This document shows positions 1 through 34,562 of a stretch of 39,159 bases of DNA, piece after piece. Location: positions 1 through 39,159 of IMG/VR virus record IMGVR_UViG_3300042356_000422, one strand, 5' to 3'. Position 1 is the stretch's first letter, and each line of letters starts with the position of its first letter. The notes under the pieces were generated by a model. That model was given only the letters and a program-made list of their open reading frames with translations. It had not been told where the DNA came from and did no database searches. The translations under genes and the position numbers were made by a program. Source of the stretch: a virus.

Positions 1-523
1 TCCAGTTTATTAGCTTCCATATGTTTTTCAAATAGCTTTTTTTATCAGCCTGATAGTCTAAAGCCCAAGCGTGTTCCCACCAATCTACTAACAGCACAAT
101 ATCATTTCTAATTTCGTGATTCGCAATGGTTTTGATCTTGCCATCTCGAGCTAGGTATGCCCACCCGCTGCCTTGTATTGTCATAGCAGTTTTTTCAAAT
201 TCTTCTTTGAAACGATCAAATGTATCAAAATGTTTTTCTATAAACTGTAAAATAGCATCATAGGGTCTATTGGCACCTTCTGGTTTTTGTAATTGACCAA
301 AATAGATATTGTGTAAAAACGCACCAGCTTCGTTGAAATCGTCATCACCCTCGCCCTTGTTGTATCGATCAACATAGGCTTTATATAGTGTACCGTAGTG
401 ATAATCTATAGTTTCTTTGGATTTTATTGGCGCCAACTCATCGGGGTCGTAGGGCAGTGTCAACTGTATGAGTTTGTCTTTTTTGCCTTCGATTATAAAC
501 TTTTGAATGAATTTAAATTCCAT
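1..523 (-). CDS. sod: Fe/Mn superoxide dismutase (3' end cut by window)
   Basis: Superoxide dismutase, converting superoxide to O2 and H2O2. About 174 residues are visible and the C-terminus runs off the window. All four metal ligands of the Fe/Mn family can be placed: His42 in DYHYG, His71 in FLHNIYF, and Asp147 and His151 in DWWEHAW. The gateway Tyr is kept (KAYV), but the usual KHH after the first ligand is TLY. GSGW and the KNIWKLINW end are also typical. The ATG at 523 follows TAAATA-N5 with no Shine-Dalgarno sequence. The gene is divergent from the next one. Fe, Mn or cambialistic type cannot be told. A role in limiting oxidative damage during infection is inferred. Confidence 0.93.
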   Translation of the reverse strand, partial: MEFKFIQKFIIEGKKDKLIQLTLPYDPDELAPIKSKETIDYHYGTLYKAYVDRYNKGEGDDDFNEAGAFLHNIYFGQLQKPEGANRPYDAILQFIEKHFDTFDRFKEEFEKTAMTIQGSGWAYLARDGKIKTIANHEIRNDIVLLVDWWEHAWALDYQADKKSYLKNIWKLINW

Positions 524-528
524 ATATG

Positions 529-534
529 TATTTA
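529..534 (-). promoter_or_regulatory. T4-late-like TAAATA box, 5 nt before sod ATG
   Basis: TAAATA on the minus strand, then CATAT, then ATG. In T4 late promoters the TATAAATA box sits at about -13 to -6, which would put the transcript start on the A of the start codon. Confidence 0.55.
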
Positions 535-538
535 CCGC

Positions 539-544
539 TAAATA
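539..544 (+). promoter_or_regulatory. TAAATA box upstream of the KPA-rich gene
   Basis: TAAATA on the plus strand, 20 nt before the ATG at 565. The leader holds an AAGGAG Shine-Dalgarno sequence. It is paired back to back with the sod box, forming a compact divergent late-type promoter region. Confidence 0.5.
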
Positions 545-564
545 AATTCCTAAGGAGATTTAGT

Positions 565-885
565 ATGATCGATTTATTAAAGAAACTATTTGGCGCCAAG
601 CCAGCAGAACAAACTGCGGAAGCCCCATATAAAGCTGAGGCAGCACCTGCGCCTGTAGTTGAGGCAGTGGTTGTTGAGGCAGCACCTGCGCCTGTAGTTG
701 AAGCAGTGGTTGTTGAGGCAGAAGCAGTTGTTCCAGCGGCTGTGGTTGAACAAGCACCTGCTAAAAAGCCTGCACCTAAAAAGCCACAGGTTGCCAAAAA
801 GCCTGTTGCTCCAAAGACTGCAACGTCAAAAGCACCACCTAAGCCAAAAGCACCACTTAAGCCAAAAGTAAAGCCGGCTGCTTAA
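565..885 (+). CDS. Lys/Pro/Ala-rich low-complexity protein
   Basis: A 106-residue protein. The start at 565 is chosen because AAGGAG lies 8 nt upstream; an earlier in-frame ATG at 526 lies before the TAAATA box. Residues 1-10 (MIDLLKKLFG) look amphipathic. The middle is Ala/Val/Glu/Pro with a tandem 39-bp repeat, and the last 45 residues are Lys/Pro/Ala-rich, like the tail of linker histones or TonB-type spacers. The 3' end overlaps the convergent uvsE gene by 29 bp. Function unknown; nucleic-acid binding through the basic tail is only inferred. Confidence 0.7.
   Translation: MIDLLKKLFGAKPAEQTAEAPYKAEAAPAPVVEAVVVEAAPAPVVEAVVVEAEAVVPAAVVEQAPAKKPAPKKPQVAKKPVAPKTATSKAPPKPKAPLKPKVKPAA
637..714 (+). 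repeat. Tandem 39-bp coding repeat (2 copies)
   Basis: Two nearly identical adjacent 39-bp units (637-675 and 676-714), each encoding an Ala-Pro-Val-Val-Glu-rich block. This is a likely site of copy-number change by slippage. Confidence 0.8.
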
Positions 886-1891
886 GACTTTGTTCATAGA
901 GTGCAAAGCTGGATAGATTCTTAGCCTTGCTTTCGCACATGATGTCAAACGAGTCTCGAAAGCTCAGTGCCCATTCATTTACTGCTGTATTCCAGTAAAA
1001 TTCTGAATGTGCTCTGAGCTTTTGTTTTTTGTAGCCCTGCTCTAAGAGGGTCGAAAGATTGGGACGGATATGTCCGGGATGGTCAATAAGACAGTCTTCC
1101 CGTGAAACACTATAATGTAAAACAGGGCGAACGCCACGCCAGCTATCAATAATCCGCTTAACACGGTCGTCAGTTGCTTCAATATATTCTCCAGAGTTAA
1201 TCCAATGATGATGTATGTCCATGACCAGGGCACAGTCCTTGACCAACTCAATGCTAGAGTCAATGCCCCAGGTCATTTCGTCATTCTCAATGGTAAGACA
1301 GTTACGGGCTTCGGGTGTCATTTTGCTTAGAGCATCACGAACACCTTGTGGACCTTGCTTACCCGAGATATGCACATTGATCTTAAAGTCTTGAAACGTC
1401 TTGCCATAGCCCATCCAGCGAGCCATGTCCACATGATACTCAAACTCTTCGATACTTCGTTCTACAATACCAGGGTTGATAGATGCCAACACGCAAAACT
1501 GACCAGGGTGGAAAGACAGGCGAACACCGTTCTGGCGAGCCAAATCTCCCACTGTTCTAAATGCTGTTTCTGCATAGGCTCTAACATCGGGCTGCCGCCA
1601 AAACCACTTCCAACTAGGCTCAGTGTATACAGGCAGTATATCGCTGCTGAGTCGTACCATTCTAAGATCTTCATCTAGTGTTCCTACCCTGGCCACCAAC
1701 TTGGTGCAGGCATCAATATTTCGTTTCATCAAGTCCCAAAGTCGCTGTTCTGCTTCTTGGGGATGTTCACGCAACCACCTAACTGTAGTAGCACCAGTAT
1801 TTAAGTCACGGTCTTTGGCATTGATCTTCATGCCGTTGACTTCTTCAGGATCATTGATCCATTTGCAGGCAAAGCCTATGCGTTTAATCAT
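857..1891 (-). CDS. uvsE: UV damage endonuclease (UVDE family)
   Basis: TIM-barrel endonuclease that nicks DNA 5' of UV photoproducts. Family motifs are visible: MIKRIGFACKW at the N-terminus, SFHPGQFCVLAS, NVHISGKQG, CLTIENDE and VMDIHHHWI. These supply the His, Glu and Asp metal ligands. The start at 1891 is preferred because family members begin with a short Met-x-x-x-Gly strand; an ATG four codons earlier (1903) overlaps the upstream stop and is also possible. About 344 residues, normal for the family. Its 3' end overlaps the KPA-rich gene on the other strand. Repair of sunlight damage to phage or host DNA is the likely role. Confidence 0.93.
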   Translation of the reverse strand: MIKRIGFACKWINDPEEVNGMKINAKDRDLNTGATTVRWLREHPQEAEQRLWDLMKRNIDACTKLVARVGTLDEDLRMVRLSSDILPVYTEPSWKWFWRQPDVRAYAETAFRTVGDLARQNGVRLSFHPGQFCVLASINPGIVERSIEEFEYHVDMARWMGYGKTFQDFKINVHISGKQGPQGVRDALSKMTPEARNCLTIENDEMTWGIDSSIELVKDCALVMDIHHHWINSGEYIEATDDRVKRIIDSWRGVRPVLHYSVSREDCLIDHPGHIRPNLSTLLEQGYKKQKLRAHSEFYWNTAVNEWALSFRDSFDIMCESKAKNLSSFALYEQSLKQPALLLA

Positions 1892-1902
1892 AGTTTCTTT
1901 CA

Positions 1903-2610: not shown

Positions 2611-3409
2611 CTACATACGGATCTAAAACATCGTGAGGATTTGGATCTCCGTGAAATACACAAACACTGCAATTGATTGGAATTTTTGGATTGATCACTG
2701 ACTTGAAGTTTCGTTTACCGTCCTTCAACACCAGTTCTTCGCGACTGCGAATTTCCCATTTGTAACTTTGAATCCATTCTATGGGCCAAAACTTTATACG
2801 ATCCTTGCTGGTTTTCCATATCCAATCTTGATCACCTTGCAGTTTTTGTGCTTCGTTTGGGTTATTATTAAATTCTTGATAGATATGAGTTTGTGATCCG
2901 TGTATCCAACTCATAACTGAACTATTGAGATAGGTCCACGAAGCATGAAATTTTCTATTAAAATCTTTGATACCCAAGAAACTATGTCCGTGACCGATTG
3001 CAAGACTATCAATATTGGCGTGTATTATCACGTCAAGATCAAAATATAATATTCTTCCTTGTATTGGCAGCCCAGGATCAAACATATGTACCTTGTGCCA
3101 CCATATTTTTTTATAATTTTTCATAGGTTGCACAATACTTCGAACACCAGGTATGGAGTGTTGATCATCAGTGATGCAGACAAATTCATAAGGTACCGTA
3201 AGATGGCGGGATACCATGTTCCGAAGTCGTTCGATATATTCACGCCCGTACTTAGTACCAAATTTTACACACAGAACAGTTACTTTTTCAGGATTAGCAT
3301 CACCGACACCAATTTCTTTTTGCAGATGTTGAGACTCTTTTTCAAATCTTCTAATAGCCTTGAGTCGCTTTCGTTCTTGTTTAGTTTGAGGAGGATTTAA
3401 CAATTCCAT
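2594..3409 (-). CDS. Glycosyltransferase-like protein (nucleotide-sugar fold, DLD motif)
   Basis: A 271-residue protein. After a basic N-terminal segment (about 1-40) comes a Rossmann-like domain starting VTVLCVKFG. It has [15 protein letters not shown] near the middle, matching the DxD metal and nucleotide-sugar site of GT-A enzymes such as GT8. Later QGDQDW also fits that fold. Donor and acceptor are unknown. The start overlaps the end of kdsA by 29 bp, suggesting translational coupling and perhaps a shared role in surface sugar modification. Confidence 0.72.
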
Positions 3410-4214
3410 CTATTTTTATAAGACTTTCTAACACGTTTTTAAGATTAGACAACATTATCATATTGGGACCATCGCTAGGGGCATTGTCTGGATCTTCATG
3501 ACATTCCATAAACACTGCACTTACGCATCCGGTGGCCACTGCTGCCCTCGCGAGGTACGGGACCATAGTACGATCCCCTCCGGAGACTGAGCCCAATCCC
3601 CCTGGTTGCTGAACACTATGTGTGGCATCAAAGACCACTGGATACCCGGTGCTTGCCATAATGGGTAGACTACGCATATCAACAACAAGATTATTATATC
3701 CATGAGTGTATCCTCTTTCGCATAACATGATGCGGTCATTGCCAGTTGAAGCAATCTTTGTCGCAACGTTCTTCATATCGTGAGGTGCAAGGAACTGCCC
3801 CTTCTTGACATTGATGGCACAGCCTGTAGCACCTGCTGCCAACAATAGGTCAGTCTGTCTACAGAGAAATGCTGGGATCTGTAGTACATCAATGCCAGCT
3901 GTAGCACACAGTTCTGCCTGATAGCTTTCGTGAATGTCAGTTAAAACTGGCACTCCTAACTGATGTTTAACGGTATTGAGAATTTTTAAACCTTCGTCAA
4001 TTCCAATACCTCGTTGAGTTGATATGCTAGATCGATTGGCTTTGTCAAAGCTGCTTTTATAGATAAATTTAATTCCTAAACTATCGCAGGTTTCTTTTAT
4101 GCTATGTGCAGTTTCGAGTGTATGGTCTAGACTTTCAATTTGACAAGGCCCGGCAATCAATACCAACGGCTCGTTGTTTCCTAATTTTATATTATGAATG
4201 TTAAATGTACGCAT
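3381..4214 (-). CDS. kdsA: 3-deoxy-8-phosphooctulonate synthase (KDO8P synthase)
   Basis: Condenses phosphoenolpyruvate with arabinose-5-phosphate to KDO-8-phosphate. Motifs in order: [62 protein letters not shown] and [15 protein letters not shown]. The Cys in AGPC, the His in ATHS, and the Glu and Asp of the last motif indicate the metal-dependent class; E. coli KdsA has Asn in place of this Cys. 277 residues from the ATG at 4214; a TTG further upstream would overlap the TAAATA box and is rejected. Partner of the kdsB gene at 9747. Confidence 0.95.
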
Positions 4215-4219: not shown

Positions 4220-4225
4220 TATTTA
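4220..4225 (-). promoter_or_regulatory. TAAATA box, 5 nt before kdsA ATG
   Basis: TAAATA-ATTAT-ATG with no Shine-Dalgarno sequence. The TAA is also the stop codon of the upstream membrane-protein gene, so part of the match has a coding reason. Confidence 0.45.
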
Positions 4226-5033: not shown

Positions 5034-5654
5034 CTGATTCTTAAAATTATCTATGCTAAGAAACCCAACATTAGATTTTTTCCATTCTGGTGGCATCAGC
5101 CATTTGTCATGATTCACAATATTATATTCTATAGTAGGAAACAATTTGAATACTTTGGCTGCTTGCCAAATCCAATAGCTAGGATCAACTGAGTGTGATC
5201 CTCCGGAAGAATAATTTTTTGTGTTTTTATAAAGATTGTTTACTAACGTATCGTTACCGTATAAATCAAAACCCAATAGATAAACTTTTTTAATGTCTGG
5301 CAACTGAGAAGCAACCAGTAATGCATAAGTTCCACTACCCCAATTTCTTGGTTGATCAATTCTATTGTGTTCTTGATTGGGAATATCAGGTAATAGAATT
5401 ATATTTTTGTGCTTTTGCACCTTGCGAAACCATTGATATGCGTGTTCTCGAACATATATAAATGTTGAAGCTGTGTTTGGATTTTCTACTGCTTCTCTTA
5501 CCATACGTTCATCACAGCAAATAAGGTGATTGACCACAGCGTCTCGATGTATGGCGTTACAGCCTACCAATAATATATTACCTAATAAATTTTGTATATT
5601 AATAGAACCACGACTTTCGCCATTGCCCATTACCAGTACAGAATTAGGTATCAT
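5019..5654 (-). CDS. GNG-SR motif Rossmann protein (DUF115/MptE-like)
   Basis: A 211-residue protein beginning SVLVMGNGESRGSINIQNL, then LVGCNAIHRDAVVNHLICCD. This matches a phage and bacterial group sharing a GNGxSR nucleotide-binding start, related to DUF115/MptE-like or sialyltransferase-like folds. The middle GSGTYALLVASQL and VYLLGFDLYG support the fold. Substrate unknown. The start overlaps the stop of the tail-fibre-like gene (ATGA). A role in sugar or fibre modification is inferred only from neighbours. Confidence 0.6.
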   Translation of the reverse strand: MIPNSVLVMGNGESRGSINIQNLLGNILLVGCNAIHRDAVVNHLICCDERMVREAVENPNTASTFIYVREHAYQWFRKVQKHKNIILLPDIPNQEHNRIDQPRNWGSGTYALLVASQLPDIKKVYLLGFDLYGNDTLVNNLYKNTKNYSSGGSHSVDPSYWIWQAAKVFKLFPTIEYNIVNHDKWLMPPEWKKSNVGFLSIDNFKNQLQNS

Positions 5655-6529
5655 CTATCTCTTTCTTTGATTTCTCCGAATGGTAACCAAGTTCCTGGCA
5701 CACCGGATTTTGCACAGACCCAACCTATATACTTTTTAATTTCTGGTTCTGAATTCCAAACTATGTCACCTCGAGTGTATGCACCATAGTCCGGGGGTGT
5801 GCTTGCATATGACTGCATATGTCCGTTAAATCTTACTGATCCGTTTACGTGTAAATCGACCGCTGGATCGGGATTCTTGACTCCAATACTTAATTTTCCA
5901 TGAATTGACACTTGAATAGGGGGTTGTTCAGTGTTGCCTAGTTGTATATTTCCATTAGGTGATACGCTTATTCTAGTTGTATTATCGGTGATAATGTCAA
6001 AAGGAGTACTGGCATGTGTTCCTACCATTCCTCGTGTTTGATCTTTAGTTCCAAGCATAACCTCAATGCCGTCTTCTGCTACAGATAATCCTGCATTTGG
6101 AGTGTCCGTACCTAGTCCCAGTCTATTATTTTCTTTATTGTAATAGATGTATTGATCGATTACTATTGATCCGTCTACGATCAATCCTCGAAGTCTTCCT
6201 AGTTCACGTAGATTGCTCTTTGTTACAGATGTGCCTAGTTCCGTAGAAGAAAGAATAGGCACTCCGCCAATGATCAATGTGCGATCTTTGAATAGTTCAA
6301 TGTGCTCAGATGAGAAAAATCTATCCGGCTTTTCATTGTACACAAATTGTTTTACATTACCTTCACCGAACCAAAGGATGCCCTTGCCGTTATTTGTGCT
6401 ACCGTCTTTGGCACGAAATTCTACAAATTGTGTAATTTCCTGAGCAACAGGTCGATGTGCCTGTTCCAACAGTGCTTTAAAAGCATCGTTGAATTCAGTA
6501 AGAGTTTGATCGATATTGGTATTATTCAT
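5651..6529 (-). CDS. Tail-fibre/tailspike-like structural protein
   Basis: A 292-residue protein, start at 6529 directly after a TAAATA-N5 signal. It contains repeat-like segments common in fibres (NRLGLGTDTPNAGLSVAEDG; IQLGNTEQPP; LSIGVKNPDPAVDLHVNGS). The end has a WNSEPEIKKYIGWVCAKSG block followed by PGTWLPFGEI, a motif seen in head-binding or attachment domains of phage fibres. Likely a virion component for host attachment. A late-type box fits a structural gene. Exact place in the virion is unknown. Confidence 0.75.
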   Translation of the reverse strand: MNNTNIDQTLTEFNDAFKALLEQAHRPVAQEITQFVEFRAKDGSTNNGKGILWFGEGNVKQFVYNEKPDRFFSSEHIELFKDRTLIIGGVPILSSTELGTSVTKSNLRELGRLRGLIVDGSIVIDQYIYYNKENNRLGLGTDTPNAGLSVAEDGIEVMLGTKDQTRGMVGTHASTPFDIITDNTTRISVSPNGNIQLGNTEQPPIQVSIHGKLSIGVKNPDPAVDLHVNGSVRFNGHMQSYASTPPDYGAYTRGDIVWNSEPEIKKYIGWVCAKSGVPGTWLPFGEIKERDR

Positions 6530-6534: not shown

Positions 6535-6540
6535 TATTTA
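6535..6540 (-). promoter_or_regulatory. TAAATA box, 5 nt before the fibre-like gene
   Basis: GATAAATA-CTGAT-ATG, no Shine-Dalgarno sequence; the 5-nt spacing also precedes sod, kdsA and others. Confidence 0.6.
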
Positions 6541-7732: not shown

Positions 7733-7762
7733 TTTCACTCCAGTGTGTTAAACAATACTTAT

Positions 7763-7791
7763 AGTATAACACCATTTATCAAGATTGTCAA
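7763..7791 (-). promoter_or_regulatory. Sigma70 promoter for the 390-aa gene
   Basis: TTGACA (7791-7786), 17-nt spacer, TATACT (7768-7763). The leader is about 25 nt and has GGAG. The -35 box overlaps the last codons of the upstream 64-aa gene. Confidence 0.85.
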
Positions 7792-7982
7792 CTGTGTTCA
7801 AATCTTTTGACCTTTTCTAACTCGCCATCTTCGTTTTCCAAATACACAATGCTGGCAATATAGCCCAAATTTAATTGAGTCTGAGCAATTTCAAAAGCCT
7901 GCTTACGGCTGTTGGTTGTTTCAATCAACTCTTCTTGGCCGGCATCGTCCTCGGCCCATACTTCATAAAGTTCCCAGTTCAT
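7788..7982 (-). CDS. Small acidic protein, unknown
   Basis: A 64-residue protein (MNWELYEVWAEDDAGQEEL...). AAGGAGACAATAG precedes the ATG, supporting translation. Acidic, with a pattern of strands and one helix (SRKQAFEIAQTQLNLGYIAS). No family recognised. It follows the 190-aa gene by 23 nt and probably shares its transcript. Confidence 0.7.
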   Translation of the reverse strand: MNWELYEVWAEDDAGQEELIETTNSRKQAFEIAQTQLNLGYIASIVYLENEDGELEKVKRFEHS

Positions 7983-8005
7983 TTTGGACTATTGTCTCCT
8001 TTTGG

Positions 8006-23981: not shown

Positions 23982-23989
23982 TATAAAAA

Positions 23990-25159: not shown

Positions 25160-25165
25160 TATTTA
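25160..25165 (-). promoter_or_regulatory. TAAATA box, 5 nt before the 235-aa oxygenase ATG
   Basis: GTTAAATA-TAGTC-ATG on the minus strand, with no Shine-Dalgarno sequence and no upstream coding constraint. Confidence 0.6.
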
Positions 25166-27797: not shown

Positions 27798-27871
27798 TGG
27801 TGCTCTAGCCAAGAATTGAACTTGAAATTCAGTCTTACCAAGACTGTGTAATACCATTTTACTACAAGAGC
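27798..27871 (-). tRNA. tRNA-Thr (GGT)
   Basis: Cloverleaf with anticodon arm CAGTC-TTGGTAA-GACTG, T-loop TTCAATT, encoded CCA. One T.T mismatch in the acceptor stem. Confidence 0.85.
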
Positions 27872-27872
27872 G

Positions 27873-27947
27873 TGGTCCGGCCTACAGGAATCGAACCCAT
27901 ATTCACGGTGTAGAAGACCGCTGTATTATCCATTATACTAAGGCCGG
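27873..27947 (-). tRNA. tRNA-Arg (TCT)
   Basis: Acceptor CCGGCCT/AGGCCGG, anticodon arm GCGGT-CTTCTAC-ACCGT, T-loop TTCGATT, CCA encoded. One nucleotide from the tRNA-Thr gene. Confidence 0.93.
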
Positions 27948-27950
27948 ATA

Positions 27951-27992
27951 AAGAAAAACCCTGCCCTAAGTACTATGTCTTAGAGGGCAGGG
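27951..27992 (-). terminator. Rho-independent terminator after the 144-aa gene
   Basis: Minus-strand hairpin CCCTGCCC...GGGCAGGG with an extended TAAG/CTTA inner stem, then TTTTTCTT. It lies between the 144-aa gene and the Arg/Thr tRNA pair. Confidence 0.82.
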
Positions 27993-28050
27993 CCGTGTTG
28001 TTGATGACAGACTATTTGGCTCATTATACTCCGCCTGTCAGGGAGAGTTG

Positions 28051-28485
28051 TTATTTTACATCGTACTCGTAGTTTACGGTGTCTAAATTTTCTCTAAAAA
28101 CTCCGGCGCCATTTTTGGTATGAAACTTCTTGGCCATATCGGTCTTTGGACTCAGAGTGACAAAGCGTTCTATGCTGGGAAATTGCTTTTGTATTTCTGC
28201 TACAGTTGCTCTCAGCAATTCTACACCAGCCCCCGGGGCGTAACTCCAAATGGTGTAGAAAATTGCTGCGGTTGGCACTTCCGTATCTTTGATCAAATCA
28301 TCGACATCTTCCGGTATGAAATCGTGTAAACTCACACATACCATAGCTCGAGGAATGTCATCAACTAGAGCACTCACAAACTTGTTCTTTCCTACCCTAA
28401 ACTCCTTAGGCAACTCAGGGCGAACAGGATCATCCTTTATGTAATCTAGGAGTGGGTCAGTGAGATTGGTGATAAAGGATAACAT
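28051..28485 (-). CDS. GNAT-like protein
   Basis: A 144-residue protein. TAAIFYTIWSYAPGAGVELL, RATVAEIQKQFPSIERFVTL and SPKTDMAKKFHTKNGAGVF resemble the GNAT core: strands, CoA helix and motif B with N/G. It resembles a small hypothetical I recall from aquatic phages. The SPKTxMAxxFHxxNGA block is the main evidence. Function unknown. Confidence 0.6.
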   Translation of the reverse strand: MLSFITNLTDPLLDYIKDDPVRPELPKEFRVGKNKFVSALVDDIPRAMVCVSLHDFIPEDVDDLIKDTEVPTAAIFYTIWSYAPGAGVELLRATVAEIQKQFPSIERFVTLSPKTDMAKKFHTKNGAGVFRENLDTVNYEYDVK

Positions 28486-28547
28486 TTTTTTCTTTCAGTT
28501 TATATGCGTACTTATGTCTTTTAGACAAAAAGACTGTTACAGTTTTA

Positions 28548-29126
28548 TTACGGTAGATATTCTACGTCCACTGCTAGGATAAATCTATAATCATTGCTTT
28601 GGACCACGCCCGGTCGATGCCATTGATTACTGGGATACAACAACCAACTGTAATCAGTAGGGCGAACAAAGAACTTTCCTTCGCCTTGGGGTCCATTTGG
28701 CGCCATTTCAGTTCCGCAATAATCACGGTCTTTTACATCCTCGGGAATATGCAGATAAAATATACCACTCAGCATCTTGGCATTTGGATTTGTAGGATGC
28801 CAATGATCGTGCCATAGCTTTTCACGATCTTCTACACCTTCTAGATTGGTCATAAATGCCCAGGCCATCATGTTATTGACTTTTACTTCTCGCCCAAGAT
28901 ACATAAACACACTGAACAAGAAACTCATACGGTACTTTAACCATACAGCTTCGGGTCTTGCAAATATGTTTTCTTGGGTTTGATACTTTGGACTATTTTT
29001 AAAATAGTTCCCATCGGCGACAATATTCTTTATAATGCCTATGGCAGTTGTATTATCTTCTTTACCGATCGTAGAACTAAAGTCAAATTTTCTAAAGGTA
29101 TCGTTTCTGTCAATAACTGTGTGCAT
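28548..29126 (-). CDS. 2OG-Fe(II) oxygenase-like protein, 192 aa
   Basis: Barrel motifs KLWHDHWHPTNPNAKMLSGI (iron-binding His pair region), FYLHIPEDVKDRDYCGTEMA and LLYPSNQWHRPGVV (distal His), then DYRFILAVDVEYLP with Arg. Matches the PF13759-type putative oxygenases found in cyanophages. The ATG is 5 nt beyond the CCA end of tRNA-Gly, so the mRNA 5' end may be made by tRNA 3' processing. Confidence 0.75.
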   Translation of the reverse strand: MHTVIDRNDTFRKFDFSSTIGKEDNTTAIGIIKNIVADGNYFKNSPKYQTQENIFARPEAVWLKYRMSFLFSVFMYLGREVKVNNMMAWAFMTNLEGVEDREKLWHDHWHPTNPNAKMLSGIFYLHIPEDVKDRDYCGTEMAPNGPQGEGKFFVRPTDYSWLLYPSNQWHRPGVVQSNDYRFILAVDVEYLP

Positions 29127-29130
29127 AATT

Positions 29131-29204
29131 TGGAGCGGGGTAACAGAATCGAACTGTCCGCATCAGATTGGAAATCTGAGGTATTACCACTATACGAACC
29201 CCGC
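29131..29204 (-). tRNA. tRNA-Gly (TCC)
   Basis: Acceptor GCGGGGT/ACCCCGC, anticodon arm TCAGA-TTTCCAA-TCTGA, T-loop TTCGATT, encoded CCA. Confidence 0.94.
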
Positions 29205-29218
29205 ATTGTTATTTCTAT

Positions 29219-29404
29219 TTATTCGTCGTCTTCTGGAGGATTGGCCAAAGGTGAAGTTGAAGGCTTTTTCTTAGACCACATTGAATATGATTCTCCTTCG
29301 ACCCTACCACTTTGATTTGGTTTTAGTTGTTGAACTACACCACCTTTGGCTAGAAACTCAGCCATCGCTGCTTCTGTTGCCGCTTGATTTTCTGCTTTTG
29401 TCAT
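29219..29404 (-). CDS. Small protein, 61 aa, unknown
   Basis: MTKAENQAATEAAMAEFLAK, then GGVVQQLKPNQSGRVEGESY. AAAGGCA precedes the ATG. Ala-rich helix followed by a disordered acidic end. No family recognised. Confidence 0.62.
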   Translation of the reverse strand: MTKAENQAATEAAMAEFLAKGGVVQQLKPNQSGRVEGESYSMWSKKKPSTSPLANPPEDDE

Positions 29405-29439
29405 TGTTGCCTTTTATAAAAAATTTGGTAGAAAACTGA

Positions 29440-30036
29440 CTAAATTATTAATTCAGTATTGAAACTAATAATTATTCGTTCGTCCGACTTATTCAACTCA
29501 GTGTCTGAACCATGTGGTAACCAGCTGGGAAATACTATTAATTTCCCAACAGTGGGTTCGAAACTCATTTTATTGTATGTATATGTTGTAAGATGTTTTT
29601 TAGGTAGATATTCTAAAAAAGGATTAACATTATTAAAAATAATTTTACTACTATTATTATCTACTTGCAAATACAATACGCCCGATATTAAACTAGAATA
29701 ATGAGTATGGGTTAATAATGCACTATCTTTATATTGAAAACTAGCCCAAGAATTACCTAGTTTACCACAGTTGTAACCAGATGTTTTTTCATATTCTAAC
29801 ACAATATCAGATAATGATGATAACATATTAGCACATGATTTTACATGTTGTTGAATGTCTTCTAATAATCTATTAGAAATATTAAATGTAGTAAACGATT
29901 TCCCAGTCATTGCCGGATAAGGTTTTTTAGGTAATCCTCGTATGTAAGTGACAATATCATTGCACTGAGTTACAGTCAAAAACTCTGAAACTTCAAAAAG
30001 TGAAATTGGAAATAGATTACATTTTGTTATTTTCAT
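29440..30036 (-). CDS. 2OG-Fe(II) oxygenase-like protein, 198 aa
   Basis: Start at 30036 (MKITKCNLFPISLFEVSEFL); the longer frame would pass through the tRNA-Pro gene. Iron site ALLTHTHYSSLISGVLYLQV; distal IVFPSWLPHGSDTELNKSDE, then RIIISFNTELI. Same PF13759-like group as the gene at 28548. Starts 14 nt after tRNA-Pro. Confidence 0.72.
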   Translation of the reverse strand: MKITKCNLFPISLFEVSEFLTVTQCNDIVTYIRGLPKKPYPAMTGKSFTTFNISNRLLEDIQQHVKSCANMLSSLSDIVLEYEKTSGYNCGKLGNSWASFQYKDSALLTHTHYSSLISGVLYLQVDNNSSKIIFNNVNPFLEYLPKKHLTTYTYNKMSFEPTVGKLIVFPSWLPHGSDTELNKSDERIIISFNTELII

Positions 30037-30049
30037 AAATTTAAAAAAT

Positions 30050-30126
30050 TGGTCGGAGTACAAGGATTCGAACCTTGGACCCCCTGGTCCCAAACCAGGT
30101 GCGCTACCAGACTGCGCCACACTCCG
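30050..30126 (-). tRNA. tRNA-Pro (TGG), copy 1
   Basis: Acceptor CGGAGTG/TACTCCG, anticodon arm CCTGG-TTTGGGA-CCAGG, T-loop TTCGAAT, encoded CCA. Confidence 0.94.
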
Positions 30127-30128
30127 AA

Positions 30129-30278
30129 TTAATTGGGAATCATATGAGGAACATAGGGCACTGCTCTAGGACCGTATCTCTGTTGCAGAAGCTTCATTGC
30201 TTCCTGTGCTGTTTCTGCACCAACACGATCCTTGAATTCTTTGCCGTTGACTCTGATTGTTGCTTCAAATAATTTCAT
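30129..30278 (-). CDS. Small protein, 49 aa, unknown
   Basis: MKLFEATIRVNGKEFKDRVG, then AETAQEAMKLLQQRYGPRAV. The start is just past the initiator-type tRNA CCA. An alpha/beta pattern like small phage proteins with a strand pair and a helix. No family recognised. Confidence 0.6.
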   Translation of the reverse strand: MKLFEATIRVNGKEFKDRVGAETAQEAMKLLQQRYGPRAVPYVPHMIPN

Positions 30279-30283
30279 AATAT

Positions 30284-30359
30284 TGGTTGCAGGAGTCGGA
30301 GTCGAACCGACGATCTGAAGCTTATGAGACTTCCGAGATACCACCTTCTCCATCCTGCG
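30284..30359 (-). tRNA. Initiator tRNA-fMet (CAT)
   Basis: Anticodon arm GAAGT-CTCATAA-GCTTC. The acceptor CGCAGGA/TCCTGCA leaves C1xA72 unpaired, the mark recognised by methionyl-tRNA formyltransferase, and the D-stem has A11-U24. Both are bacterial initiator traits. It lacks the three G-C pairs of the anticodon st em seen in E. coli, so entry to the P site may differ. CCA encoded. Confidence 0.85.
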
Positions 30360-30679
30360 ATAACTTTATTAAAACAAACTAAGGCATATTAAAAGTTATA
30401 GCTATGCTAAAGAGCTCCGGGGAAGCCAAACCTAATCAAGTATTTCTACAAGATTCTAATTTGTTCTAATAAAGTGTCCGGCTACTTACACCACATAAGC
30501 CCCGAACTGAGCGGTTACTCTGTCCATAACATTTATTCTTCTGGAAAGGTGCTAAACCTCACCCAATGCGTTCTAGTATCCCTTAACTCAGAGAACTAAT
30601 GGTCATAGCATTGAATACCCGGCGCTCTCTATGGTGACTGCCCCACCCCCGTTTATTACGTGTACGGGATCACGGGTTT
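30360..30679 (-). other. Gene-free 320-nt spacer, partly structured
   Basis: No convincing ORF. Contains GC-rich segments with short inverted repeats (for example CCCGT...ACGGG near 30650, and an AACTTT/AAAGTT pair near 30365-30400). Could be leader or trailer RNA of the flanking genes. No tmRNA or RNase P motif seen. Confidence 0.4.
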
Positions 30680-31252
30680 TTAAACTAAACCTTCTGATTG
30701 CAATGTTGCCACTACTTCTTCACTGAGTGGAATCTCTGTTTTGATATTTAACTCAAGTACTTCATCGTTGAGTTTCTGCTTTTGTTTCTTGAGATTTTTA
30801 ATCTCTGTACTAATCACATCTAGCTGTTCGTGACCGATGACATTAGTAGACACTGTGTCACTAAATCCATAGATACGGCTACGGCTACTTTCGCTCTTGT
30901 CGTTGCGAATCTTGTCCAACTTACCGTTGATCACGGCAAGATTAGTTACAGGATCTACTACAAGACCTTCAAGTTGAGCAACACGTTTGTCCACAAAGGC
31001 AGCAGTGGCCAATTTCAAATCAATGCCGCTTTGTGCGTTGGCACTGCCCACAAGACCACGAATGTTATACAAGGCCAACAGCAGGCGTTGTCTCCGACTG
31101 TCGTTGTTAAACAGCGTATCGTTGGCATTCTTTAGTTCTACTGCTACATCTTGAAATTCATTGAGATCAATCGATGTTGTGATTTTAATGCCCTTGATAG
31201 CATCATTGATGCTGTTTTGTAGGGCGCTGGCTTTTCTAAGTGAAATATTCAT
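30680..31252 (-). CDS. Conserved phage coiled-coil protein, 190 aa
   Basis: Start at 31252 (MNISLRKASALQNSINDAIK), where AAAGGAC precedes the ATG. Long helical segments, including a Lys-rich coiled coil near the C-terminus (EIKNLKKQKQKLNDEVLEL). It overlaps the rpoZ-like gene by 17 nt. It resembles a hypothetical I recall from T4-type aquatic phages. Function unknown. Confidence 0.7.
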   Translation of the reverse strand: MNISLRKASALQNSINDAIKGIKITTSIDLNEFQDVAVELKNANDTLFNNDSRRQRLLLALYNIRGLVGSANAQSGIDLKLATAAFVDKRVAQLEGLVVDPVTNLAVINGKLDKIRNDKSESSRSRIYGFSDTVSTNVIGHEQLDVISTEIKNLKKQKQKLNDEVLELNIKTEIPLSEEVVATLQSEGLV

Positions 31253-31481
31253 CTCGTTGTCCTTTACGTTTTTTTGGTAATTTATTAATATAATCTTTAT
31301 AGGTATACTTGCCTTCTTCAATCTCTCGAAGTGCTGTAGAAATAAATGTTTTGCCTGGTTCAGCGACTTTGGGCATTGAACCGTTTTTTAACTCTCGGGC
31401 TCGCTGACTGGCAACTAGTACCAAGTCAAACCTATTGCCTATCTGTTCTACTGCTAATTCTGATGTTAATCTTGATGTCAT
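31236..31481 (-). CDS. rpoZ: RNA polymerase omega subunit-like protein
   Basis: An 81-residue protein. NRFDLVLVASQRARELKNG at residues 16-34 matches the omega core motif (NRFELVLVASxRARQL), followed by ISTALREIEEGKYT, the ALREIxxG motif. In cells omega binds the beta' C-terminus and stabilises RNA polymerase. A phage copy may replace host omega or alter polymerase specificity. GAGGAA precedes the ATG. Cotranscribed with the 71-aa and 190-aa genes. Confidence 0.88.
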   Translation of the reverse strand: MTSRLTSELAVEQIGNRFDLVLVASQRARELKNGSMPKVAEPGKTFISTALREIEEGKYTYKDYINKLPKKRKGQRDEYFT

Positions 31482-31488
31482 ATTTTCC

Positions 31489-31704
31489 TCAGGTTAAAAA
31501 ACGGTTCAGTGAAAGGTCAAGTAAAAGACTGGACAATGTGCAAATAACAATGCTCAATATACAATCCACAGGGGTCACTATATTTCCGGTAATCAATAAA
31601 CAAATATCTTTTGGGGCCGGAACACAATGACACGGATACTTTTTCAGAGTATTTGGAGTTAAGTTCCATTTGGCATGAAGCCAAACAGTAGTGTCTTCTC
31701 TCAT
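31489..31704 (-). CDS. Possible small membrane protein, 71 aa
   Basis: MREDTTVWLHAKWNLTPNTL, then a Cys-rich stretch and one hydrophobic segment (VDCILSIVICTLSSLLLDLS). AAAGG precedes the ATG and a strong promoter lies upstream, but composition is odd and there is no family match. It may be a real gene or a leader ORF controlling rpoZ. Confidence 0.45.
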   Translation of the reverse strand: MREDTTVWLHAKWNLTPNTLKKYPCHCVPAPKDICLLITGNIVTPVDCILSIVICTLSSLLLDLSLNRFLT

Positions 31705-31722
31705 CTACCTTTCACTTTGCCG

Positions 31723-31742
31723 GTTGTGTATTGCTACACAAC
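31723..31742 (-). promoter_or_regulatory. Perfect 8-bp hairpin with GCAA tetraloop in the mRNA leader
   Basis: GTTGTGTA-GCAA-TACACAAC on the minus strand, just after the transcription start and before the AAAGG of the 71-aa ORF. May protect the 5' end or bind a regulator. Confidence 0.7.
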
Positions 31743-31748
31743 AAAACT

Positions 31749-31777
31749 ATTATAGCACTATACAAGATGTTTGTCAA
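31749..31777 (-). promoter_or_regulatory. Perfect sigma70 promoter of the rpoZ unit
   Basis: TTGACA (31777-31772), 17-nt spacer, TATAAT (31754-31749). Lies directly after tRNA-Thr(TGT). Confidence 0.9.
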
Positions 31778-31793
31778 CATCTTTTGACTATAT

Positions 31794-31867
31794 TGGTGCC
31801 CCTACACAGAATCGAACTGCAAACTGCGGATTACAAAACCGCCGTTATACCATTTAACTATAAGGGC
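31794..31867 (-). tRNA. tRNA-Thr (TGT)
   Basis: Acceptor GCCCTTA/TAGGGGC, anticodon arm GCGGT-TTTGTAA-TCCGC (one T.T at the loop end), T-loop TTCGATT, encoded CCA. Confidence 0.88.
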
Positions 31868-31873
31868 AATGCT

Positions 31874-31949
31874 TGGTGGAGGATAACGGATTCGAACCGT
31901 TTGCTCCTGGTTGCAAACCAGGTGTGTTAGCCAAGTATACCAATCCCCC
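31874..31949 (-). tRNA. tRNA-Ala (TGC)
   Basis: Acceptor GGGGGAT/ATCCTCC, anticodon arm CCTGG-TTTGCAA-CCAGG, T-loop TTCGAAT, encoded CCA. Confidence 0.93.
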
Positions 31950-31955
31950 AATATT

Positions 31956-32246
31956 TCACTTACCTTCGTTGAGTTTATACTCTTGAAGTTTTTCTTTAAA
32001 TGCTTCTTCGGTTAGTCCGTGCCAACCGATGCACTTGCCGGTTGGCGAACGACCGCAACCGCAAGATCCGATTTTACTTTCATCTTCTTTTACTCGTACT
32101 TGCATAGTATCAATCCTGTTAAATTCTTCATCTTCTCGAACTGCATCTTGCACTTCTTGAGGACTCTTGCGAAAAATTGTATCCCATCTATTGTCAAACT
32201 CACGCTGGCTGACACTAAAGGGTCTTGCTTTAGATCCCTTGCTCAT
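31956..32246 (-). CDS. CDGSH-like Cys/His cluster protein, 96 aa
   Basis: Start at 32246 (MSKGSKARPFSVSQREFDNR), with CAGGAAG before the ATG. The C-terminal part has IGSCGCGRSPTGKCIGWHGL. This Cys-x-Cys...Cys-x-x-x-His spacing is close to the CDGSH iron-sulfur motif but has IGWH in place of DGSH. A metal or Fe-S site is likely; function unknown. Confidence 0.68.
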   Translation of the reverse strand: MSKGSKARPFSVSQREFDNRWDTIFRKSPQEVQDAVREDEEFNRIDTMQVRVKEDESKIGSCGCGRSPTGKCIGWHGLTEEAFKEKLQEYKLNEGK

Positions 32247-32247
32247 A

Positions 32248-32460
32248 TCAACTTCCTGAAGATACGGTCCCAGATGCATGGGTGGTAAAATTACCATTGC
32301 CCGGTTTGCGTGTTTCACGCTTGGGTTGAACAGCGGCACATAGCTCTGCATCAATCATGGCACGTTTCCACTCACCTCGCTTGTGAGGATCTAGAACTCT
32401 ACTCATTGCTAGACTTGCTTTAGTCAAAGATGACATCTTGTAATTTGGACCTGGTTTCAT
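32248..32460 (-). CDS. Small basic protein, 70 aa
   Basis: MKPGPNYKMSSLTKASLAMS, then RVLDPHKRGEWKRAMIDAEL. AAAGGA precedes the ATG. Its stop overlaps the spacing of the next start, so the two are co-translated. Basic, possibly RNA-binding. No family recognised. Confidence 0.62.
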   Translation of the reverse strand: MKPGPNYKMSSLTKASLAMSRVLDPHKRGEWKRAMIDAELCAAVQPKRETRKPGNGNFTTHASGTVSSGS

Positions 32461-32685
32461 TATGTTTCCTTTATTAAAATCTGGTTGCTCTGACGTCCCC
32501 CGGCGGTAATTATAGTACAGAAAGATATGACGCTATCATACCTCTCACTCGTACCTTCCACCCGCTTCCCGACAGGGACCGTTCTCGCATTGCTAGCGGC
32601 CTTTGGGTTTAAAGACTACCACCCGTAGTTGTCACACTACTTCTCATCGTGCGGGTCACACTATCCGAAGACACTCGGAACGTTC
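32461..32685 (-). other. Gene-free 225-nt spacer with repeated short motifs
   Basis: No ORF. On the minus strand AGTGTGAC occurs twice, 27 nt apart, and GATGAGAAGT lies between; the same 10-mer recurs at 35999-36008 in another spacer. A TATAAT-like -10 near 32505 without a clear -35 may help transcribe the 70-aa gene. Confidence 0.4.
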
Positions 32686-32773
32686 TGGCGGAGCATGTAG
32701 GAATCGAACCTACTCACCACTTGCGCAGTGACAGATTAGCAATCTGTTGCCTTAACCGGTCGGCCAATGCTCC
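32686..32773 (-). tRNA. tRNA-Ser (GCT)
   Basis: Class II cloverleaf: acceptor GGAGCAT/ATGCTCC, anticodon arm ACAGA-TTGCTAA-TCTGT, long variable arm, T-loop TTCGATT, G73, encoded CCA. Confidence 0.93.
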
Positions 32774-32774
32774 A

Positions 32775-32915
32775 TTATCTTGTTGCTTTACGTAGTAATT
32801 TATACCAGTAATATCTCACACCACGCCAAGTCGGCGTAAAATTCCAATTGACAGCAAACCCCACTTTGTTAGGAATATTTCGGTATGCCTGGTCTATAAT
32901 TTCTTTGGGTATCAT
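32775..32915 (-). CDS. Small basic protein, 46 aa
   Basis: MIPKEIIDQAYRNIPNKVGF, then AVNWNFTPTWRGVRYYWYKL. It ends one nucleotide before tRNA-Ser. AAGAAG precedes the ATG. Aromatic and basic. Placement between tRNA genes favours a real gene; no family recognised. Confidence 0.55.
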   Translation of the reverse strand: MIPKEIIDQAYRNIPNKVGFAVNWNFTPTWRGVRYYWYKLLRKATR

Positions 32916-32934
32916 ACAGTCTTCTTTCTACTAG

Positions 32935-33009
32935 TGGTACCTGGTCACGGTTTCGAACCGCGGACCCTCTCGGTGTAAACGAGACGCTCTACCCCTGAGC
33001 TAACCAGGC
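32935..33009 (-). tRNA. tRNA-Val (TAC)
   Basis: Acceptor GCCTGGT/ACCAGGT (G1.U72), anticodon arm TCTCG-TTTACAC-CGAGA, T-loop TTCGAAA, encoded CCA. Confidence 0.93.
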
Positions 33010-33019
33010 AAAATTCTTT

Positions 33020-33106
33020 ACCATATTGAAACACACTAACTACCACGGTATGTACTAAAGTTCAATGAACCGTTACAACCCTATCTTTAATATGTTTCAA
33101 TATGGT
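33020..33106 (-). repeat. tRNA-spacer hairpin 1 (14-bp perfect stem)
   Basis: Arms 33020-33033 and 33093-33106, ACCATATTGAAACA against its exact complement. The arm at 33093-33106 begins with the ACCA of tRNA-Leu. Internal ACGGT/ACCGT pairing. Confidence 0.75.
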
Positions 33107-33186
33107 GCGCAAGGAGAGACTCGAACTCTCAATCCTTTCGGCAATGGCTTCTAAGACCATCGTGTATACCATTCCACCACTTGCGC
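33103..33186 (-). tRNA. tRNA-Leu (TAG)
   Basis: Class II: acceptor GCGCAAG/CTTGCGC, anticodon arm ATGGT-CTTAGAA-GCCAT, variable arm, T-loop TTCGAGT, encoded CCA that also pairs in spacer hairpin 1. Confidence 0.93.
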
Positions 33187-33300
33187 AAAATCTTACTTTA
33201 AATTTTTAATGAACATTACTAATTGCTTAGTATGTAACTATTATATAGTCATTACGTTATCTTGTCAACAGTTATTTTAAAATATTTTTTGGTGCCGTCC

Positions 33301-33864
33301 TTAGGATTGAATTTCATTTGTTATTAGATCCTCAAGTTTTGGATTACCATTAAATCTAATGCATACTGTTATTCTAGGATTATTAAAATCTACATTCACA
33401 ATATTATGTGGGATTGAACTGTTTACTAATGTCCATTCATTCTTGCCTTCTAGTTCTGTAGCAAGACATACATCATCTTCTTTAAAATAATAAGCATCTG
33501 CTACTTTAGGAATAACATTTGATTTTGTATTATAAAAACACATCCTTGTCCCTTCAAACCCCACGAGAGGTAAGTTGAAGCTTGCATATCTCAATGTTGA
33601 TTTACCATCAGCATGAATGGCCTGGGAATACGTGTGTTTAAATATTGAAAAATATTCAATCGGTGGAAATTTTAGTTTACTAACTAGCAACGAACTAAGT
33701 TTTAATATTTCTAAATCTTTATAAAAATCTTTTTTAAAATACATCATATATAAAGGACTAGACAATTGTTCAAAAATTTTATATTTTGGTATGAATTCTT
33801 TCAAAAAATAGTTAGTCCAATATACATTATCTATTTCTGGAAAGTGTTTATAAAAGTTTTGCAT
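33301..33864 (-). CDS. 2OG-Fe(II)-oxygenase-like protein, 187 aa
   Basis: Iron site SQAIHADGKSTLRYASFNLP (HxD), distal NSSIPHNIVNVDFNNPRITV with Arg. This is a clear double-stranded beta-helix hydroxylase pattern. Directly preceded by an AATAAATA-N5-ATG signal. Substrate unknown. Confidence 0.68.
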   Translation of the reverse strand: MQNFYKHFPEIDNVYWTNYFLKEFIPKYKIFEQLSSPLYMMYFKKDFYKDLEILKLSSLLVSKLKFPPIEYFSIFKHTYSQAIHADGKSTLRYASFNLPLVGFEGTRMCFYNTKSNVIPKVADAYYFKEDDVCLATELEGKNEWTLVNSSIPHNIVNVDFNNPRITVCIRFNGNPKLEDLITNEIQS

Positions 33865-33869
33865 GTTGG

Positions 33870-33875
33870 TATTTA
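33870..33875 (-). promoter_or_regulatory. AATAAATA box, 5 nt before an oxygenase ATG
   Basis: TAAATA-CCAAC-ATG, no Shine-Dalgarno sequence. Lies between two tRNA genes. Confidence 0.6.
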
Positions 33876-33909
33876 TTAATTATGTAGAGTTCTAAGAGTC
33901 CAACTTAGT

Positions 33910-33984
33910 TGGTGCAACCTCTAGGAATCGAACTCCTATTCGCACTTTGGAAGAGAGCTGTATTCTCTATTATACAAAGGCGGC
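33910..33984 (-). tRNA. tRNA-Gly (TCC)-like, mosaic / possibly degenerate
   Basis: Anticodon loop CTTCCAA gives TCC, but the acceptor GCCGCCT/AGGTTGC and anticodon stems each have a mismatch. The T-arm only pairs in a shifted register (TAGGA/TCCTA). The last 26 nt nearly equal those of tRNA-Phe at 34591. CCA encoded. Confidence 0.65.
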
Positions 33985-33988
33985 AATG

Positions 33989-34552
33989 TTATGCAATAAT
34001 TGCTAAATTTTTATAACGTTTGAGACTTTTTTCTATCAGCGTCTGATGCCTTGCTGTATCAATAAATCCTCTAATATAGATAATCTTTCTGCCCGGATCA
34101 TCCTTGAGCATGTGTAGCCCTGCTGTGGTATTTAAAAGATAACAACAAGGCACAGATGGCAATTCTGCTAACTTAAACGTGCCTCCACTTTTAACATAAA
34201 GTACATCAGTGGACCCTTCTAGGACTAGACGATACCCTGCAGGTTCGTTATCTAAAATATTAGTGTATTCTCCTTCTTCAAATTTCATATTTGGATATAC
34301 ATCGTAATGAGGTGACACAGCTTGTCTTTGCTCTTTATAATATACATTTGTTACTTTGCTTATAGGCAACTGATCTAGTACAGATTTTAAAGTATCATCA
34401 ACTGTTTCAGTAATTCTAGAAGTATCCCAATACTGTTGATACTCTGCAGTTTTTATGTAGGTTAGGTTGTTGATGACGTTAATTGTAGACTGTATTTTTG
34501 ATGTATCAATCTTTGGAATTTCAATATCAATTGGAAGGAATAATATGTTCAT
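33989..34552 (-). CDS. 2OG-Fe(II)-oxygenase-like protein, 187 aa
   Basis: Start at 34552 (MNILFLPIDIEIPKIDTSKI), 4 nt after a TAAATA box. Iron site AVSPHYDVYPNMKF (HxD), distal TTAGLHMLKDDPGRKIIYIR. N-terminal ILFLPIDIEIPK and tail IEKSLKRYKNLAIIA closely follow the protein at 21569, so the two are paralogues. Confidence 0.68.
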   Translation of the reverse strand: MNILFLPIDIEIPKIDTSKIQSTINVINNLTYIKTAEYQQYWDTSRITETVDDTLKSVLDQLPISKVTNVYYKEQRQAVSPHYDVYPNMKFEEGEYTNILDNEPAGYRLVLEGSTDVLYVKSGGTFKLAELPSVPCCYLLNTTAGLHMLKDDPGRKIIYIRGFIDTARHQTLIEKSLKRYKNLAIIA

Positions 34553-34556
34553 ATAA

Positions 34557-34562
34557 TATTTA
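34557..34562 (-). promoter_or_regulatory. AATAAATA box, 4 nt before an oxygenase ATG
   Basis: TTTAATAAATA-TTAT-ATG, no Shine-Dalgarno sequence. Confidence 0.55.

Follow-up and report, generated by a model that had tools for sequence, protein, structure and literature searches.

Does a late promoter of the T4 type always stand far enough from its gene to leave room for a leader, or can it be placed so that the mRNA begins at the start codon itself? This question is raised by IMGVR_UViG_3300042356_000422, a virus record of IMG/VR with a length of 39,159 nt, which was analyzed as a whole (hereafter the window) and which carries 29 tRNA genes, superoxide dismutase, UvdE, ThyX, kdsA, two desaturases and tail proteins. 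A first-pass annotation of the window had noticed the hexamer TAAATA 4 or 5 nt before ten start codons and had suggested leaderless late genes. All ten boxes were found at the positions claimed. We propose that they are, in all probability, gp55-type late promoters placed so that the late mRNAs are leaderless.

TAAATA boxes directly before start codons

Seven boxes end 5 nt before the start codon. Six of them are on the minus strand: 529-534 before ATG 523 of the superoxide dismutase gene (2-523, SOD by Pfam), 4220-4225 before ATG 4214 of kdsA (3381-4214, KDO-8-phosphate synthase by NCBIfam, E 3e-124), 6535-6540 before ATG 6529 of a fibre- or virion-structural-like gene (5651-6529, weakly matching virion structural and tail fibre families of PHROGs), 20188-20193 before ATG 20182 of a fatty-acid desaturase gene (19409-20182), 25160-25165 before ATG 25154 (24447-25154) and 33870-33875 before ATG 33864 (33301-33864), the last two genes having no family match. 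The seventh, at 13927-13932 on the plus strand, precedes ATG 13938 of a GNAT acetyltransferase gene (13938-14390, Pfam). Three boxes end 4 nt before the start codon. The minus-strand box at 21530-21535 precedes GTG 21525 of the second desaturase (20773-21525), and the plus-strand box at 21559-21564 precedes ATG 21569 of a gene without family match (21569-22189); these two genes form a divergent pair whose start codons are 43 nt apart, with one box each. The third, at 34557-34562 on the minus strand before ATG 34552 (33989-34552), is the weakest of the ten, with an in-frame ATG 24 nt upstream. The start codon is AUG in nine of the ten genes. As the annotation had stated, the box overlaps the preceding stop codon at kdsA, where its TAA is the stop of the upstream open reading frame (ORF), and at 20182. 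For the genes at 21569, 25154, 33864 and 34552, neither Pfam nor PHROGs supported, at E 0.01, the label "oxygenase-like" that the annotation had given them. The lone Pfam match of the gene at 34552, an alphavirus glycoprotein under the family cut-off, is surely irrelevant.

The spacing of the boxes was then compared with expectation. TAAATA is rarer in the window than expected (33 copies versus a mean of 58 in shuffles). In a list of 60 genes, the 60-nt upstream regions hold 17 copies, of which 10 lie at offsets 4-5 and at most two at any other offset (conditional binomial P about 6e-11). In 2000 dinucleotide shuffles of the upstream regions, the mean was 0.22, the maximum was 3 and none reached 10. 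For three genes the list had picked the box-consistent start (4214, 6529 and 34552, with longer frames from TTG 4229, TTG 6544 and ATG 34576). A count blind to the box, in which each frame contributed at most its first three ATGs, retained eight cases, two at a distance (d) of 4 nt and six at 5 nt, against 0.08 per offset at 6-17. ATG 11448 was considered as an eleventh boxed start and dropped, its ORF being out of frame with thyX (start 11452); the spacing of the thyX box varies among orthologues. The exact pattern CTATAAATA-N3-8-ATG had zero matches in the window, probably because the first bases of the T4 octamer are not fixed in this phage.

Conservation of box and spacing among relatives

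Relatives were gathered via UvdE, using the best 80 loci of at least 600 stretches. One of them lies in G001, a 281,658-b contig whose UvdE is 87% identical to that of the window; G001 also encodes a DNA polymerase of the T4 type and a baseplate wedge protein of large size. By polymerase and wedge, the jumbo phages Phosso, Atu_ph07 and SCTP-2 are among the closest isolates of G001, with 31-50% identity among the matches listed. Because of these UvdE, polymerase and wedge relationships, the window is assigned by sequence to a T4-superfamily jumbo phage. No isolated phage gave a megablast match to window bases 1-25000, the part used as query (the last 14 kb were not in it). The best-scoring relatives of the window KdsA are mostly alphaproteobacterial (top identity 65%, best 80 of at least 595 stretches), which by sequence kinship is a hint only as to the host.

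The upstream regions of the boxed genes were compared among these loci. For sod, with the G001 orthologue as query, a box at 4 or 5 nt is present in 27 of 28 distinct upstreams, and for kdsA 31 of 34 have retained the box, including some with seemingly unrelated upstream sequence (loci L018, L045 and L058). A small ORF near sod in G001 (216365-216652) keeps box and spacing in 36 of 36, and the fibre gene has the box in 11 of 17 distinct upstreams. The spacer letters vary among orthologues although box and spacing persist. The count takes any box-bearing in-frame start up to 15 codons from the projected start, a rule that leans towards the box. Sod, kdsA and the fibre gene are the boxed window genes that could be judged in this way; the rest were not assessable or lack an orthologue among the loci, the GNAT gene at 13938 having zero orthologues among those fetched and the GTG desaturase (21525) appearing as a paralogue only.

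The first-pass annotation had also called for a genome-wide search for the spacing, and enrichment was found in G001 and most further relatives. In G001, a box precedes nine ATGs at a spacing of 4, 16 at a spacing of 5, and one GTG, also at 4 (AUG in 25 of 26 boxed starts); other spacings below 18 have 0-2 each, and a broad hump lies at about 24-33. Ten boxed G001 proteins were scanned: three match baseplate wedge, virion structural or tail tube families, three others fall into families that are non-structural or unknown, and the remaining four have no match. In the 80 clade loci, which are redundant, the commonest spacings among 713 copies of TAAATA are d=5 (131) and d=4 (78), followed by d=20 (43) and d=7 (32). 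After collapsing into protein families (window, G001 and 79 loci), which lessens the redundancy but leaves some, a box at 4-5 occurs in at least one member of 34 families out of 97, one family being that of the out-of-frame 11448 ORF. Scans of box spacing, families and divergent pairs excluded ORFs below 50-60 aa. When matches to the pattern were compared with those to the reversed pattern, 18 of 20 clade records exceeded this control. Seven further relatives of 139-280 kb gave 14-30 matches versus 4-11, and smaller fragments gave 5 versus 2 (G028), 7 versus 1 (G029), 5 versus 0 (G031) and 4 versus 3 (G032).

All hexamers were ranked by their excess at spacing 4-5 over 8-18, with simple longest-frame gene calls and up to three ATGs per frame. 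TAAATA ranked first in the window (8 versus 0.2), in G001 (23 versus 0.9) and in the cultured pelagimyophage HTVC008M (13 versus 1.3). One-base variants showed little excess, with the exceptions of TAAGTA in G001 (4 versus 0.2) and TAAATT in HTVC008M (3 versus 0.5), which may be permitted weaker boxes. Base columns around the box were tabulated from -8 relative to it, for the boxes at 4-5 and those at 16-33. In these two classes, T or A precedes the box in 69% and 83% of cases in G001 and in 67% and 92% in HTVC008M. The base after it is C or T in 78% (n=23) and 74% (n=30) of the classes in G001, and G in 75% (n=13) and 50% (n=12) of those in HTVC008M. The next-base preference is thus similar between spacing classes within a phage and different between phages, in small numbers.

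The same arrangement in pelagimyophages

HTVC008M grows on Pelagibacter. It has 12 ATGs exactly 5 nt from a box and one at 4, and the annotated starts coincide with them. The boxed genes are those for the tape measure protein, gp2, gp4, gp54, gp3, a wedge protein (31132) and the wedge initiator (49760), together with CsgF, a 2-oxoglutarate oxygenase, a cyclase, a dsbA-like regulator and two unknowns; the "gp" names are partly an interpretation of the product names. The set comprised 103 of the 105 annotated coding sequences (CDS) in three fetched stretches of a record with 198 features, the edge-cut 54918-55811 and 139632-140063 being dropped. Thirteen of the 103 CDS have the box at d=4-5, all with AUG, and 12 of the 13 have no Shine-Dalgarno sequence. 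When the box lies at 14-54 nt, a Shine-Dalgarno sequence is present in 8 of 10 (P 0.0007 versus the d=4-5 class), and at 18-30 in 5 of 5. The major head protein gene has zero TAAATA within 60 nt.

The arrangement extends to relatives of HTVC008M. For gp54, 51 of 80 loci were used (the 29 omitted include all of L196-L213, with 32-35% identity), and TAAATA-N5-ATG is present in 50 of these 51 redundant upstreams; in four cases, the ATG concerned lies upstream of the match by 9 nt. The profile is mixed in more distant relatives of gp54 (L191-L213, with identities mostly of 32-35%), with 17 at d=5, 16 at d=28 and 11 at d=33. The gp4 box lies at 5 in 25 cases and the gp2 box at 5 in 35. In 17 loci, representing six distinct sequences with HTVC008M counted twice, gp2 and gp4 are divergent with starts 26 nt apart and two head-to-head boxes; because the divergent pairs are so close, there is little room for leaders. 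The pelagimyophage G033 gave 16 matches versus 10 for the reversed control.

HTVC008M is like the window clade in having the same arrangement, mostly at spacing 5, at gp2, gp4, gp54, gp3, wedge and tape-measure genes. It differs in its smaller T4-like genome, in its annotated gp55, gp45 and gp33-like genes, and in the G that follows the box instead of C or T.

In locus L131 of HTVC008M (7562-9557 and 11972-13807), the curli CsgF and cyclase genes carry late boxes of the leaderless type. CsgG and CsgB follow the boxed CsgF, and the curli genes therefore look late-expressed.

Comparison with T4 and other systems

The same analyses were applied to isolated phages. T4 (about 129 kb), Syn9 and S-PM2 have zero genes at spacing 4-5 and 18-22 at spacing 20-33. 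Atu_ph07 has two at 4-5 (no excess), and Phosso has two and Melnitz three (P about 0.05 each). Shine-Dalgarno hexamers top the 4-5 ranking in T4 (about 129 of 169 kb), Phosso (400 of 469 kb), Atu_ph07 (400 of 490 kb) and Melnitz. Matches versus reversed control were 10 versus 12 in T4, 3 versus 7 in Syn9, 6 versus 10 in P-SSM2, 6 versus 3 in S-PM2, 16 versus 7 in HTVC008M, 5 versus 3 in Melnitz, 33 versus 38 in SCTP-2, 4 versus 2 in Phosso, 17 versus 26 in Atu_ph07, 6 versus 5 in Vibrio 2.275.O, 9 versus 18 in GAP32, 6 versus 28 in XaC1, 12 versus 16 in Munch, 0 versus 0 in phiM12 and 3 versus 5 in KVP40. For gp4, the box lies 26 nt before the start in T4, 24 in Syn9, 25 in S-PM2 and 5 in HTVC008M. 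Of 20 orthologue comparisons, 10 have a box within 45 nt, two of them at 5 (both in Melnitz) and eight at 16-33.

The geometry of the T4 late box on which the first-pass annotation had relied is in print, an excerpt of PMC1524935 placing TATAAATA at -13 to -6; likewise, the T4 late box stands about one helical turn before the transcription start, as worded in a passage of PMC2988020. Like T4 late promoters (TATAAATA, read with gp55, gp33 and gp45), the system has a TAAATA core, a gp55-type sigma and a predicted clamp in a relative, and boxes before virion genes. The modal spacing of 5 is also what would be expected from T4 geometry if +1 is the A of AUG. Unlike T4, many boxes stand at 4-5 nt, the first two bases of the octamer are not fixed and gp33 was not found in G001.

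Like leaderless bacterial genes of Sinorhizobium meliloti, of mycobacteria and lambda cI, the boxed genes are predicted to have an mRNA beginning at AUG, with no Shine-Dalgarno sequence. The promoters of bacterial leaderless genes are read by cellular sigma factors; here, unlike there, the reader is probably a phage late sigma and the trait spans many late genes. In S. meliloti, an alphaproteobacterium, 171 leaderless transcription start sites, all with AUG, are given in an excerpt of PMC3616915. Late promoters of phiKZ (TATG, with +1 at G) provide another case of a giant-phage late motif very near the transcription start, as described in part of PMC4666361, although motif and machinery are unrelated and a phage multisubunit RNA polymerase reads it.

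Late-transcription machinery

The first-pass annotation had suggested a search for gp55/gp33-like sigma genes elsewhere in the genome. The first was found in the relative G001 and the second was undetected there. G001 carries gp55 at 104078-104920 (T4 gp55 query, E=1.5e-7; PHROGs late sigma factor phrog_12791, E=1.7e-80, and phrog_234, E=3e-24), adjoining gp47 and gp46; none was seen in the 39-kb window fragment. A clamp candidate beside the DNA polymerase of G001 has a weak profile match (E=0.012). Its AlphaFold model (predicted local distance difference test score 82.8) has 50 listed PDB matches, all to PCNA-type clamps (best E 4e-11, template modelling score 0.60-0.70), and G001 is thus predicted from the modelled fold to encode a PCNA/gp45-type sliding clamp. 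The gp33 profile phrog_254 was also unmatched in Atu_ph07 and SCTP-2 and reached no better than E=0.026 in Phosso; gp33 is short, and the profile may miss this branch. The ribosomal protein bS21 was considered as a companion of leaderless translation and rejected, its distribution not tracking the trait: four of 20 records carry it (HTVC008M, Melnitz, Phosso and Atu_ph07), and it is missing in G001, in 14 other records of the clade and in T4.

Proposed leaderless late mRNAs and alternative explanations

On the explanation we favor, a phage gp55-like sigma on the host RNA polymerase would read the TAAATA core, probably assisted by the PCNA/gp45-type sliding clamp. With the box at -13 to -6, RNA would start on, or within one nt of, the A of AUG, since T4 geometry places +1 on this A when 5 nt separate the box from ATG. 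Ribosomes would then start directly at the 5'-terminal AUG of a leaderless mRNA that has no Shine-Dalgarno sequence. The late promoters that these phages have at about 18-33 nt upstream would give ordinary leaders, mostly with a Shine-Dalgarno sequence, and pelagimyophages such as HTVC008M would have orthologues of T4 late genes with the leader shortened to nothing.

Several observations weigh against leaderless late promoters. If T4 geometry is applied strictly, spacing 4 would make U the first base of the RNA instead of A, and a shift of one nt must be assumed. Non-AUG starts are inefficient on leaderless mRNAs, as stated in a portion of PMC3616915, yet one window gene uses GTG. Six to nine of the 26 boxed G001 genes lie within 10 nt behind a same-strand gene, so that read-through could give them a leader. 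Shine-Dalgarno sequences have a mean frequency of 6% over the 34 families at d=4-5 versus 66% over 41 families at d=20-34, but this loss is partly mechanical, the box filling that site, and classes 0-3 and 6-13 also have 0%; absence of a Shine-Dalgarno sequence was for this reason rejected as proof by itself. Among pelagimyophage relatives, the gp4 box lies at 6 in 19 cases and the gp2 box at 6 or 8 in 14. Two of the 20 clade records (G015 and G020) equal the reversed-pattern control, and 4 of 16 further records have no excess (G030, 3 versus 4; G034, 2 versus 7; G035 and G036, 4 versus 4 each), the last three being records with distant gp54. Melnitz has just three starts at spacing 4-5, and 10 of the 20 orthologue comparisons, including Melnitz gp4, have no exact box within 45 nt. 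As to the machinery, the identity of the clamp depends mainly on a predicted fold, and phrog_254 had no match in G001, which may be incomplete. "Late" status is itself suggested by T4 orthology.

The alternative that survives best, though we consider it improbable, is that TAAATA at -10 to -5 is not a promoter, and that it acts in translation initiation as an A/T-rich ribosome contact replacing the Shine-Dalgarno sequence, with the mRNA starting further upstream. The box does stand where these genes would otherwise have a Shine-Dalgarno sequence, and some boxed genes lie inside gene runs (the 6 to 9 of 26 above, depending on start choice). However, the same hexamer with a phage-specific next base also stands 16-33 nt upstream of genes, there mostly together with a Shine-Dalgarno sequence, and gp4 and gp3 orthologues in T4 or cyanophages have it at the distance of a led promoter. 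Boxed G001 genes are also less often operon-internal than others (9 of 26 versus 177 of 299, Fisher P 0.022, with one start rule for all; 8 of 26 versus 163 of 299, P 0.024, under an alternative uniform rule), which argues against a ribosome contact, as does the little enrichment of one-base variants, TAAGTA in G001 and TAAATT in HTVC008M excepted. Moreover, with gp2 and gp4 starts 26 nt apart, transcripts from further upstream would have to begin inside the opposite gene.

Still less probable is that the late promoter is real and the true start is a later in-frame codon, which would mean a short leader and a wrong annotated N-terminus. Later in-frame starts are possible in any gene (they were not surveyed), and spacing 4 fits a promoter at the start codon worse than spacing 5. 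A false ATG, however, would let the spacing drift, and the spacing is near constant across divergent orthologues (gp54 50/51, sod 27/28, kdsA 31/34); a ribosome binding site inside the gene, where none was sought, would still be required.

We give very little credence to ordinary leaderless promoters of the host sigma-70, with the -10 hexamer right before the gene. Their position would be similar, since leaderless -10 promoters resemble the boxes in this respect, but TATAAT, TAAAAT, TACAAT and like hexamers showed no enrichment at d=4-5 in G001 or HTVC008M. The sigma-70 consensus wants A at -11, where TAAATA, aligned to -11 to -6, has T; relative G001, moreover, encodes gp55. Chance, or overlap with a stop codon (a preceding TAA followed by ATA), is next to impossible: the TAA of the box is the upstream stop in kdsA and in CsgF, cyclase and dsbA-like genes of HTVC008M, but the window alone gives the P value above, the same spacing occurs at divergent pairs with no upstream stop, T4, Syn9, S-PM2 and Atu_ph07 have no such excess, and the enrichment recurs in the seven largest further clade relatives.

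Possible significance of the arrangement

Late transcription in T4 is a standard textbook subject, and its boxes, as counted here, stand far enough from the gene for a leader. What is known is the T4 late promoter; what appears from sequence to be new is its placement on the start codon, in two lineages, and no report of leaderless late genes in T4-like phages was found among the literature matches listed. A late promoter on the start codon, if true, would tie a phage sigma factor to leaderless translation. The boxed genes, 13 in the stretches of HTVC008M covered and 26 in G001, provide a natural set of candidates for leaderless expression, and HTVC008M on Pelagibacter HTCC1062 is a cultured pair that allows a direct test. 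Late-promoter prediction was unsuccessful in pelagimyophages according to part of the text of PMC7029224, and start-codon boxes may partly explain this failure. Box placement is also of help in settling the start codons and mapping the promoters of aquatic phages.

A wider and much more tentative proposal is that two T4-superfamily lineages, freshwater jumbo phages and pelagimyophages, lost many late-gene leaders as gp55 promoters moved onto the start codon. For such genes, late infection would use a translation start different from that of early infection (5'-terminal AUG, independent of Shine-Dalgarno), a switch in translation along with the switch in transcription, perhaps favored by alphaproteobacterial hosts. 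The trait likely arose independently in the two lineages. Pelagibacter, the host of HTVC008M, is an alphaproteobacterium; Phosso and Atu_ph07, whose hosts are also alphaproteobacterial, do not have the spacing trait.

Led boxes and other features of the window

Led versions of the box, reported at first pass for the genes at 565, 17283 and 13763, are present. The plus-strand box at 539-544, divergent from the sod box, lies 20 nt before ATG 565 with the Shine-Dalgarno sequence AAGGAG between. On the minus strand, 13790-13795 lies 26 nt before ATG 13763 (a Mtd_N tail protein) with AGGAG between, and 17304-17309 lies 20 nt before ATG 17283 with GGAGA between. A further led box, not in the earlier list, was found at 17955-17960 on the minus strand, 26 nt before ATG 17928 (a cupin protein), with AGAGG between.

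In addition to kdsA (minus strand), the window carries a kdsB-like CMP-KDO synthetase gene at 9747-10406 on the minus strand (E 4.5e-49, under the curated cut-off). Two steps of the pathway to 3-deoxy-D-manno-octulosonate (KDO), a component of outer-membrane lipopolysaccharide, are thus present in one phage. The region 14001-24000 has 30-34% GC, against about 40-43% in the left flank and 36-46% in the right, and contains GNAT, cupin, weakly QueC-like and desaturase genes; it is perhaps an acquired metabolic cassette. The 29 tRNA genes lie on one strand (minus) at 27798-37399 with small ORFs between them, and several ORFs overlap tRNA genes. Past this cluster, at 38459-39052 on the minus strand, there is a frame resembling a head maturation protease (phrog_94, E 1.8e-22).

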